This document shows, one piece after another, positions 14,795 through 43,977 of a stretch of 50,586 nt of DNA (position 1 is its first letter; each line of letters begins with the position of its first letter). This stretch comes from Flavobacteriales bacterium (lineage in GTDB: Bacteria > Bacteroidota > Bacteroidia > NS11-12g > UBA955), in the NCBI GenBank assembly GCA_947487175.1, contig CANKVM010000006.1:1-50586 (forward strand), written 5' to 3'. The notes beneath the pieces are model-generated. The model was not told the origin of the DNA. It did no database searches and saw nothing but the letters and a program-made list of their open reading frames with translations. A program made the position numbers and the translations under genes.

Positions 14795-16948
14795 TTAAGC
14801 GTTAGCTTCAGTCATCCATTTGTTCCACTGTTCTGCAGAAATCTTGCTATCAGTTTCAACCATAGTAGTGATTTTATCTTCAGTTAATGAAGTTAATTCT
14901 TCTACAGAATTCACACCAAGTGCATTCATTCTTTTCACCATAGCTGGACCAACTCCTGCCAATGATTTCAATTCAGTGATTCCACCACTTTCGGCAGTTG
15001 ATTTAGTTGCTTTAGATGCATCTGCTTCAACTTTTGCTGCTGCTGCATCGGCTTCCGCTTTTGCTGCTTTTTTGTTGCCTTTTTCAGCTTCTGCAAATTG
15101 TGCTCTCAATTCAGTGAAGGCATCCAATTCACCCAAAGTAGATCTCTCTGAAGAATTACCAGATTTCTTAACTGGTTTTCCGCCAGTAGTTTTGCGAGAT
15201 TTATCTCCGCCTCTAGATTTATCATCAGAATCATTCTTAGCTCTTTCAGCACCTTTCCAGATGTTTGTATGAGAAACAATGATACGTTTAGAATCTTTGC
15301 TAAATTCGATTACTTCAAACTCAAGAACTTCGTCTTCTTTCAACGGCTTGTTGTCTGCTTTCTTAATGTGACGGGTTGGAGCAAATGCCTCAACACCATA
15401 CTGCATTTGAATAGTAGCACCTTTGTCGTTGATGTTCATTACAGTTCCTTCGTGAATAGAACCGATAGTGAAGATAGTTTCGAAAGTTTCCCAAGGATTT
15501 TCTTCCAATTGTTTATGACCCAAACTCAAACGTCTGTTATCAGAATCAACTTCCAATACAACAACATCTAATTTTTCGCCTTTTTTCACAAATTCAGAAG
15601 GATGCTTGATCTTTTTGTTCCAACTTAAGTCAGAAACGTGCACCAAACCATCAATACCCTCTTCAAGTTCCAAGAACAAACCATAAGAAGTTAAGTTTTT
15701 AACTACTCCAGAATGCTTGCTTCCCAAAGGATATCTGTCGGTGATGCTAATCCAAGGATCGGAATTCAATTGTTTGATACCCAAGCTCATTTTGTGCTCG
15801 TTACGATCAAGTGACAATACCAATGCTTCGATTTCTTCACCCACTTTTAGGTATTCAGAAGGGTTACGTAGGTGTGAACTCCAGCTCATTTCACTTACGT
15901 GCACCAAACCTTCAACACCAGGTTTAATTTCAATAAATGCACCGTAATCAGCTACAGATACAACTCTACCTTTAACTGTAGAACCTTCAGCGATGTCGGC
16001 TTCTAAATTATCCCAAGGGTGAGAAGACAATTGCTTCAAGCCTAAAGAAATACGTTTTTTGGTATCGTCGTAGTCTAAGATAACTACGTTAATTTTATCA
16101 TCTAATTTTAATACCTCTTCTGGGTGATTGATTCTACCCCAAGAAATATCAGTAATATGCAATAATCCATCAATTCCACCCAAATCAACGAACACACCAA
16201 AGCTTGTCATGTTTTTCACAACACCTTCTAGTATTTGTCCTTTTTCTAGGCGAGATAATATTTCAGATTTTTGAGCTTCAATATCATCTTCAATTAATGC
16301 TTTATGAGAAACAACTACGTTTTTGTAAACATCATTGATTTTAACAATTTTAAAATCCATGTTTTTGCCCACGTATTGGTCGTAATCTCTTACTGGCTTA
16401 GTATCGATTTGAGAACCTGGTAAGAAAGTATCAATGCTAAATACATCAACTACCAATCCACCTTTGGTTCTAGAGCGCACAAAACCTGTAACAACAGTAT
16501 CATTTGCATGAGCTTCAACAATTTTTTCCCACGCAGTTTCTTGTAATGCTTTTCTTCTGCTTAGGATCAGTTGACCCATTTTGTCCTCAGCTATGTCAAC
16601 AAATACTTCTACTTCGTCGCCAACTGCCAATTCTGGTCTGTCTCTGAATTCTGTTCTTGGAACTAGTCCATCACTTTTGAATCCGATGTTTACTACTACG
16701 TCTTTATCGTTAATAGCAACAACTAGACCTCTAACCACTTGTTTTTCAACAACTGGGCTAAATGTTTTAGAGTAAGACTCTTCTAATACGTTTCTTTCGT
16801 CTGAAGAATACGATTGAAAACCTGCATCATCTGCATCCCAATCGAAATCATCGTGTCCTGAAACTTTTGAAATTGCCTTTTGTTTTGGGGCAATTTCGGA
16901 AACTGCTTGAGTTTCTTCAATGTTGTTTTCGTTTTTTTCGTTAGTCAA
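14795..16948 (-). CDS. rpsA: 30S ribosomal protein bS1 with C-terminal helix-hairpin-helix extension
   Basis: RNA-binding ribosomal protein that helps load mRNA on the small subunit. The 717-residue protein has six S1 OB-fold repeats between about residues 65 and 560 (for example SFGVFVDLGGIDGLLHITDISW, DYGAFIEIKPGVEGLVHVSEMSW and SYGLFLELEEGIDGLVHVSDLSW). After them comes a basic/Ser-rich stretch and an Ala/Lys/Glu-rich probable coiled coil. The last ~55 residues form a helix-hairpin-helix-like domain (LKSLAGVGPAMVKRMNALGV). The start codon is TTG at 16948, supported by a strong SD (AAAGGAGG) 10 nt upstream. An unusually strong SD and a weak start codon on this gene suggest autogenous control. 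It is monocistronic with its own terminator. Confidence 0.96.
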   Translation of the reverse strand: MTNEKNENNIEETQAVSEIAPKQKAISKVSGHDDFDWDADDAGFQSYSSDERNVLEESYSKTFSPVVEKQVVRGLVVAINDKDVVVNIGFKSDGLVPRTEFRDRPELAVGDEVEVFVDIAEDKMGQLILSRRKALQETAWEKIVEAHANDTVVTGFVRSRTKGGLVVDVFSIDTFLPGSQIDTKPVRDYDQYVGKNMDFKIVKINDVYKNVVVSHKALIEDDIEAQKSEILSRLEKGQILEGVVKNMTSFGVFVDLGGIDGLLHITDISWGRINHPEEVLKLDDKINVVILDYDDTKKRISLGLKQLSSHPWDNLEADIAEGSTVKGRVVSVADYGAFIEIKPGVEGLVHVSEMSWSSHLRNPSEYLKVGEEIEALVLSLDRNEHKMSLGIKQLNSDPWISITDRYPLGSKHSGVVKNLTSYGLFLELEEGIDGLVHVSDLSWNKKIKHPSEFVKKGEKLDVVVLEVDSDNRRLSLGHKQLEENPWETFETIFTIGSIHEGTVMNINDKGATIQMQYGVEAFAPTRHIKKADNKPLKEDEVLEFEVIEFSKDSKRIIVSHTNIWKGAERAKNDSDDKSRGGDKSRKTTGGKPVKKSGNSSERSTLGELDAFTELRAQFAEAEKGNKKAAKAEADAAAAKVEADASKATKSTAESGGITELKSLAGVGPAMVKRMNALGVNSVEELTSLTEDKITTMVETDSKISAEQWNKWMTEANA

Positions 16949-42970: not shown

Positions 42971-42997
42971 GCGTTTTCAATATCATAAAGAAAACGC
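42971..42997 (+). promoter_or_regulatory. Inverted repeat between fmt and the ECF sigma gene
   Basis: GCGTTTTC (42971-42978), 11-nt spacer, GAAAACGC (42990-42997): a perfect 8-bp inverted repeat. There is no T-run after it, so it is not a clean terminator. It could be a binding site or a leader structure for the downstream sigma factor. Confidence 0.4.
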
Positions 42998-43054
42998 CTA
43001 TAGCTATAAAAATACTCAACTAAAAAACGTATTAACAATTAAAGTTTAATCCGC

Positions 43055-43061
43055 AAGGAGG
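43055..43061 (+). promoter_or_regulatory. Strong Shine-Dalgarno sequence of the ECF sigma gene
   Basis: AAGGAGG (continuing as AAGGAGGAG) lies 9 nt before the ATG at 43071. Together with the rpsA site it is one of only two strong SDs I found ahead of a gene in this window. Confidence 0.85.
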
Positions 43062-43070
43062 AGTATTATT

Positions 43071-43652
43071 ATGGCAACAACAATGATAGCAGATGGTGTG
43101 TTAATAAAACACTACACAGAAGGCAACCAAGGCGCTTTTGAAACCCTTCTCAAAAGACACAAAAATCGCATTTTCTCGAGCATTTATGCTCTGGTTGGTG
43201 ATCGTTATATTGCTGAAGACATATTTCAGGAAACTTTCATTAAAATCATACACTCTATTAGAACTGGCAAATACAACCATGAAGACAAATTTCTTCCTTG
43301 GGCGATGCGTATTTCTAGAAATATGTGTATTGATTCAATTCGTCAAAGAAAGCGTTTACCAATAGTTGTAGACAGTGAAGGCAATGATATTTTAAACAAC
43401 CTTGGAATATTCGAAAAAAGCCAGGAAGAGTTGCATATTGAAAACGACGAAATTACCATGCTAAGAAAATGGATTTGGGAATTACCTGAAGAGCAGCGCG
43501 AAGTACTGGTTTTGAGGAATTATGCAGATTTAAGTTTCAAAGAAATTGCAGTTGTAACAAATACAAATATCAACACTTGTATTGGTCGAATGCATTACGC
43601 TTTAATTAATCTTAGAAAAATGACGCAAAAAAATTCAGTTAGAGTAAAATAA
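43071..43652 (+). CDS. ECF-type RNA polymerase sigma factor
   Basis: Sigma-70 family extracytoplasmic-function sigma factor, 193 residues. Region 2 is visible as YIAEDIFQETFIKIIHSIRTGKY, then FLPWAMRISRNMCIDSIRQRKR. Region 4 is LPEEQREVLVLRNYADLSFKEIAVVTNT, followed by the helix RMHYALINLRKMTQ. There is no region 3 and no anti-sigma domain in the same chain. The gene has a near-perfect SD, rare in this genome, and is followed 42 nt later by a 76-residue ORF that may be its partner. Which stress it answers cannot be told. No -7 box of the housekeeping type was found in its upstream region. Confidence 0.93.
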   Translation: MATTMIADGVLIKHYTEGNQGAFETLLKRHKNRIFSSIYALVGDRYIAEDIFQETFIKIIHSIRTGKYNHEDKFLPWAMRISRNMCIDSIRQRKRLPIVVDSEGNDILNNLGIFEKSQEELHIENDEITMLRKWIWELPEEQREVLVLRNYADLSFKEIAVVTNTNINTCIGRMHYALINLRKMTQKNSVRVK

Positions 43653-43694: not shown

Positions 43695-43925
43695 ATGATT
43701 TATAACATTACCAAAAATGAATTGCTAAAATACTTTTACAATGAATGCTCTCCTAGCGTGAGGCAATTGATTGAAATGGAGTTAGACGCAAATCCTGAAT
43801 GGAGGAATTACTTAAATTATTTAGAAACGGTTCAAAATTCAACCAAAATTGATTTTAAGCCTAATGACACTTTGGTAAGTATGATCTTAGAAGAAAGTGC
43901 AGCTACCGAACACCAATCATTATAA
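43695..43925 (+). CDS. Small protein downstream of the ECF sigma factor, possible regulator
   Basis: Protein of 76 residues without a transmembrane segment or signal. The sequence LLKYFYNECSPSVRQLIEMELDANPEWRNYLNYLE resembles the N-terminal helices of anti-sigma factors that hold a small sigma, but there is no zinc-binding HxxxCxxC motif. It is in tandem with the sigma gene, with a good ATG and a hairpin terminator directly after its stop. I do not recognise a named family. An anti-sigma or sigma-modulating role is inferred only from position and size. Confidence 0.65.
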   Translation: MIYNITKNELLKYFYNECSPSVRQLIEMELDANPEWRNYLNYLETVQNSTKIDFKPNDTLVSMILEESAATEHQSL

Positions 43926-43943
43926 AATATCTTCATTCATAAA

Positions 43944-43977
43944 ACAAAAAAACCTTCATTTATGAAGGTTTTTTTGT
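43944..43977 (+). terminator. Bidirectional rho-independent terminator
   Basis: AACCTTCAT/ATGAAGGTT (43951-43970) flanked by an A-run on the left and TTTTTTTG on the right. It follows the small ORF on the plus strand and faces the end of the thioesterase gene on the minus strand, serving both. Confidence 0.9.

Follow-up and report, generated by a model that had tools for sequence, protein, structure and literature searches.

In enterobacteria, the rpoH thermometer and the rpoS leader both fold into a helix that covers the start region of the alternative sigma factor gene they precede, and the rpoH and fourU leaders are RNA thermometers, in which warming melts the stem and exposes the start site. 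Bacteroidia ribosomes largely disregard Shine-Dalgarno (SD) sequences. The autoregulation of rpsU by bS21 in Flavobacterium johnsoniae involves a strong SD, in a phylum in which the ribosomal anti-SD (ASD) is hidden (McNutt et al. 2023, PMC9976891); messages with a strong SD are translated better by F. johnsoniae ribosomes that lack bS21, and in Flavobacteriales rpsU is typically the only gene of this kind (PMC9976891). Structure in the start region is also reported to lower translation in Flavobacterium (PMC6847099). Among the ECF sigma factors of the phylum, SigP (PG0162/PGN_0274) of Porphyromonas gingivalis is controlled by PorX/PorY and serves type IX secretion (PMC4800418, PMC8265659).

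The locus described here lies in a window (the whole stretch of DNA analysed) of 50,586 nucleotides from a Flavobacteriales bacterium. Like the rpoH and rpoS leaders, its leader would place a helix, in this case a predicted one, over the start of an alternative sigma factor gene. It differs from them in sigma family and phylum, in the position of one arm near the putative 5' end, in a loop measuring about 30-60 nt, and in arms whose sequences change from clade to clade but remain complementary, with no Rfam match. Compared with F. johnsoniae rpsU, the gene concerned is a sigma gene, the SD is shorter (7 bp) and predicted to be masked by a stem, and most families that have it lack an SD on rpsU. 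We found no description of such a leader in Rfam or in the literature searched. The features of the locus are as follows.

42995 to 43004, forward strand: promoter-like block CGCCTATAGC, a putative -10 region, conserved among leaders
43011 to 43017, forward strand: 5' arm AATACTC of the leader stem, a perfect 7-bp complement of 43061 to 43067, backed by coevolution and by covariation at the core flanks
43050 to 43059, forward strand: local hairpin TCC-GCAA-GGA in the MFE fold, overlapping the first half of the SD
43055 to 43061, forward strand: Shine-Dalgarno sequence AAGGAGG, pairing with the ASD at -11.3 kcal/mol; GGAGG in 18/21 same-family loci
43061 to 43067, forward strand: 3' arm GAGTATT of the leader stem, overlapping the SD end and stopping 3 nt before the ATG
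43071 to 43652, forward strand: ECF sigma factor gene (Pfam, NCBIfam), with a single orthologue per genome in 230/295 sampled Bacteroidia
43695 to 43925, forward strand: small partner protein of 76 aa, with a partner ORF in most loci examined, a four-helix model and weak Foldseek matches
43946 to 43976, forward strand: terminator-like inverted repeat AAAAACCTTCATTTATGAAGGTTTTT with A and T runs, after the partner gene, read straight from the sequence

An ECF sigma factor gene and its small partner

The 193-aa product of the gene at 43071-43652 matches Pfam Sigma70_r2 (57.6 bits, 1.1e-15) and Sigma70_r4_2 (35 bits, 1.1e-8), both above cut-off, and reaches 89 bits against a cut-off of 42.9 for sigma70-ECF (TIGR02937, NCBIfam). 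It has sigma-70 regions 2 and 4, lacks region 3 and is about 190 aa long, as the ECF class demands, and 35/38 relatives carry one orthologue each. An fmt-like formyltransferase gene is the upstream neighbour and the 76-aa ORF the downstream one, and in most loci examined an ORF of about 60-90 aa follows the sigma gene. The 76-aa partner has no Pfam match; its predicted four-helix model has a pLDDT of 83, and Foldseek against the PDB returns weak matches (E 0.8 and worse), mostly to the anti-sigma chains ChrR, RsiW, RslA and MucA. Going by this model, the partner is probably a soluble anti-sigma factor, and a sigma/anti-sigma pair beneath a single masked leader would be the simplest reading. 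The inverted repeat at 43946-43976, which was not reported by the terminator scan, looks like a terminator and would close a two-gene unit of sigma and partner.

SigP is also a 193-aa Bacteroidota ECF sigma factor, and its upstream intergenic region of 149 bp, with a PorX site at -97 to -75, would accommodate a leader of this sort (PMC4800418, PMC8265659). The likeness is one of length and class-wide distribution, the parts of these sources drawn on here reporting no leader structure for SigP (PMC4800418, PMC8265659). A search of the present leaders for a PorX-like motif found none.

A Shine-Dalgarno sequence conserved by family

An earlier note on this DNA had pointed to a near-perfect SD lying 9 nt upstream of an ECF sigma gene in an SD-poor genome, and the coordinates, the domains and a comparison of 322 gene starts all bear this out. 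Nine nucleotides separate AAGGAGG at 43055-43061 from the ATG at 43071, or seven if the count starts from that note's AAGGAGGAG. The 322 gene starts comprise 400 kb of a congener plus the window, and pairing is that with the 16S tail; the 16S gene is absent from the MAG itself, and two same-family genomes have a CACCTCCTTT tail. On this background the sigma start ranks third at -11.3 kcal/mol, with AAGGAGG alone supplying 7 consecutive base pairs, while pairing of -8 kcal/mol or better occurs at 9 of the 322 starts vs 16 in a mock window. This makes the sigma SD an unusual site in an SD-poor genome.

The AAGGAGG string by itself is within chance, and one genome cannot demonstrate selection. 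The earlier note had proposed a genome-wide list of AAGGAGG starts; by string count the list stays at chance (25 AAGGAGG-N3-12-ATG strings in the whole genome vs 30 with the reversed control), and only about five of the 25 strings stand at plausible gene starts, namely those of the sigma gene, rplR, a 183-aa ORF, a transhydrogenase-like gene and little else. In rplR, coding for ribosomal protein L18 (L022, G000 contig C44, about 16738-16754), AAGGAGG lies 7 nt 5' of the ATG, and in the transhydrogenase-like gene (L024, G000 contig C66, about 705-726) it lies 12 nt 5' of it.

The evidence that carries the SD comes from relatives. The same note had suggested looking for the SD in orthologues, and it is indeed kept across its own family as the rest of the leader changes, which is why we judge it real. 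Beyond the 18/21 loci of this family (f1), GGAGG precedes the sigma gene at 5/5 loci in f39, 5/5 in f40, 3/3 in f22, 4/6 in f4, 2/2 in f7 and 2/2 in f32, and at 0/6 in f55 and 0/9 in f10. It is found before 28/132 sigma genes vs 1/248 other genes of the same loci, both counts including near-identical species. We fetched over 200 leaders, of which 184, all from Bacteroidia, were non-redundant; of these, 40 pair with the ASD at -11 kcal/mol or better, vs 0 in the mock window, and 144/184 have no GGAGG. The sigma starts of some other families reach -13 to -16 kcal/mol with the ASD. Even where the leader has diverged, the SD persists in orthologues with as little as about 50-70% protein identity.

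Coevolving arms of the leader stem

The two arms of the stem differ between clades yet stay complementary, as in ATACCTT/AAGGTAT and CTCCTTT/AAAGGAG, and further matching pairs in other clades are AATACCTAT/ATAGGTATT, ACTTCTAC/GTAGAAGT and TACTCTTTT/AAAAGAGTA. In a register-free swap test, we scored every upstream region against the start region of the same leader and against those of other species. Across the 184 leaders, own partners exceed swapped ones with z 11.2 by helix score and 12.8 by RNAduplex (0/5000 permutations as high), and an earlier run on 48 clade representatives had given a z of about 7 that was never reached in 5000 permutations. The signal is maximal at -12..0. Reversed start regions and a mock upstream window gave z 0.4-1.3, and the coding-region control gave 2.9-4.4, so a minor composition effect remains. 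The pairs that flank a TAC:GTA core change among A-U, C-G, U-A and G-C, and the helix is thus backed by covariation both in the swap test and in the change of pair type at the flanks. The mean stem energy is -10.1 kcal/mol in leaders with an SD vs -7.4 in those without.

Methods that work by column recover little of this. RNAalifold gave zero consensus pairs for the mixed alignments A3, A5 and A7 and, for alignment A6, only a 7-pair stem, with one compensatory column; the covariance model built from A3 contained no base pairs, and a fixed-register column test of the leaders gave no signal. We attribute the failure of RNAalifold and of the fixed columns, without claiming proof, to arms that slide several bases relative to the TAC and the ATG. 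In short Cytophagales-type leaders, the 5' block is present and the stem signal is not significant.

The promoter-like block and the putative 5' end of the transcript

Most leaders have a block like GCCTATAG 14-16 bases upstream of the 5'-arm TAC, and TATA[G/A] stands about 14-16 bases 5' of the conserved TAC in most anchored leaders. In same-family genomes, the pattern CGCCTATA-N8-13-TACY mainly finds the sigma leader, its other matches not exceeding the reversed-pattern control. Taking 42995-43004 as the -10, we infer a transcript 5' end at about 43007-43011. If the block is a -10 element, then the 5' arm sits at the 5' end of the mRNA.

Two further arrangements were seen around such blocks. 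Leaders L254, L256, L265, L273 and L281, from several families, have GGAG or AGGAGG directly upstream of a CTATAG block, and the Cytophagales-type leaders L084, L090 and L136 are short, with ACAATATGATATA-GACCTCTACGTTAAC strongly conserved near the ATG, possibly as promoter plus start site.

Predicted occlusion of the start site

In the leader of this genome, positions -14..-1 have a predicted pairing probability of 0.81, of which 0.66 is with the 5' part, a value attained by 9/285 genes of the congener. Across leaders, pairing of the start region with the first 25 nt is 0.51 vs 0.21 in shuffled leaders (n=119, p 1e-17). The folding z-scores of single leaders are modest (-1.1 for this one). 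When leaders were swapped within the SD-bearing set, SD accessibility did not differ (0.17 vs 0.20), because the 5' arms of SD-bearing leaders are alike. The local hairpin at 43050-43059 has counterparts in close relatives, where CC-GNRA-GG with a GCAA, GAAA or GTAA loop is retained at 9/24 family loci listed, near-identical species included. The loop between the arms often has a second hairpin of its own (L061, L121, L192, L193, L245 with GACC-GAAA-GGTC, L310, L321).

A proposed translational lock on the sigma gene

Taken from the sequences alone, the conservation of the SD, the coevolution of the arms and the predicted occlusion suggest that a leader stem masks the sigma start and acts as a translational lock, the SD providing a foothold in certain families, a reading to which we give a probability of roughly two in three. 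The sigma mRNA probably starts just upstream of the short arm, and this 5' arm would fold back on the bases right before the start codon, part of the SD included, so that the stem would mask the start site and sigma translation would remain low for as long as the stem is closed. In this and several other families, the independently conserved SD would be an extra strong landing site, letting a ribosome with a free anti-SD compete against the stem; elsewhere, the stem would operate without an SD. Transcription of the arm, repression of translation by the stem and its opening under some condition are all parts that we infer, and candidate triggers for the opening are a bound factor, a small RNA, temperature or the state of the ribosome. 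Sigma production is probably controlled at translation. The idea of a translational switch on this sigma gene, raised in the earlier note, has become more plausible because the SD and the start region lie in a leader stem backed by coevolution, but its link to ribosomes limited in bS21 is unsupported.

Alternative explanations

If ribosomes lacking bS21 expose an anti-SD that pairs with AAGGAGG, the sigma gene would be turned on when bS21 is scarce. The sigma SD is strong and conserved in the family, loss of bS21 in F. johnsoniae raises the translation of strong-SD reporters (PMC9976891), and a stem over the start would increase reliance on SD pairing. Tyr is kept at position 54 of bS21 in this genome, which makes occlusion of the ASD itself plausible. 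The rpsU genes tell against it. Here, the rpsU start (L034, G000 contig C14) reads ...AAGAAAAACACAATACC-ATG and lacks the extended SD described as typical of rpsU across the phylum, and a strong rpsU SD is absent in nearly all sampled relatives and lacking also in f4, f22, f39 and f40. Genomes with the sigma SD mostly lack the one on rpsU: across 78 genome comparisons, 23 have the sigma SD only, 4 have both, 13 have the rpsU SD only and 38 have neither, and the rank correlation between the two pairing energies (-0.19, p 0.10) shows no significant association. In f55, rpsU has an SD that matches the published Flavobacterium case and the sigma genes have none, which agrees with rpsU as typically the sole strong-SD gene in Flavobacteriales (PMC9976891). 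The -11.3 kcal/mol over 7 bp at the sigma start also falls short of the published rpsU mark of -13 kcal/mol with 9-13 consecutive bp, a mark computed with another program than ours (PMC9976891). The stem is kept in most leaders although the SD is absent, and with 144/184 leaders lacking GGAGG while the stem signal spans the set, ribosomes with an exposed ASD cannot be the general trigger. We regard this explanation as unlikely; judged on sequence, exposed-ASD control may apply in the SD-bearing families.

Temperature is a doubtful trigger as well. A stem that is AU-rich in many lineages could melt on warming and free the start site, and many leaders do have U-runs paired with A-runs beside the SD, with the start region predicted to be occluded. 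Searching Rfam with this leader and 20 other loci, however, gave no match over threshold, to a thermometer or otherwise, and a shared heat cue is not obvious among orthologues from very varied organisms. A Flavo-1 match in L243 lies on the opposite strand and is weak, well under threshold.

The stem and the ribosome might also act as two keys: the stem would keep out normal ribosomes, which have a hidden anti-SD, and only ribosomes that expose theirs would be admitted by the masked SD, a combination that we think quite unlikely. If it were true, ribosome composition would gate this class-wide sigma factor in the families that have the SD.

We consider it improbable that the arms are inverted half-sites of a DNA operator, covarying through drift in the specificity of a DNA-binding regulator and not through RNA pairing. 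The 5' arm does adjoin a promoter-like block that is conserved even in stemless short leaders, and G-U pairs are not clearly preferred, the coevolution score being 12.5 with Watson-Crick pairs only and 10.7 with G-U counted as pairs; however, adding A-C lowers it further, to 8.7. The arm span varies widely (27-92 nt) and shows no clear 10.5-bp helical phasing, which speaks against a fixed operator, and one arm holds to the ATG, not to the promoter. The CC-GNRA-GG hairpin of close relatives, with its variable loop base, also points away from DNA.

A plain, slightly strong ribosome binding site, inherited by descent, with no regulatory role and only incidental complementarity, would fit the lack of genome-wide over-representation of AAGGAGG near ATG and its presence at few other genes (rplR), but the survival of the SD to about 50-70% protein identity despite leader divergence and the swap test (0/5000) make this highly improbable.

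Significance

On the sequences compared, the finding is real and larger than the earlier note had stated, extending to a class-wide sigma gene, to leader ends that coevolve and to an SD that is conserved within particular families. Since many other families also have the SD before this sigma gene, within a coevolving stem, the gene would provide a second testable gene for the purpose of the hidden anti-SD. More broadly, the leader points to translational control of an ECF sigma factor present in 230/295 sampled Bacteroidia, one that may possibly be tied to protein secretion.
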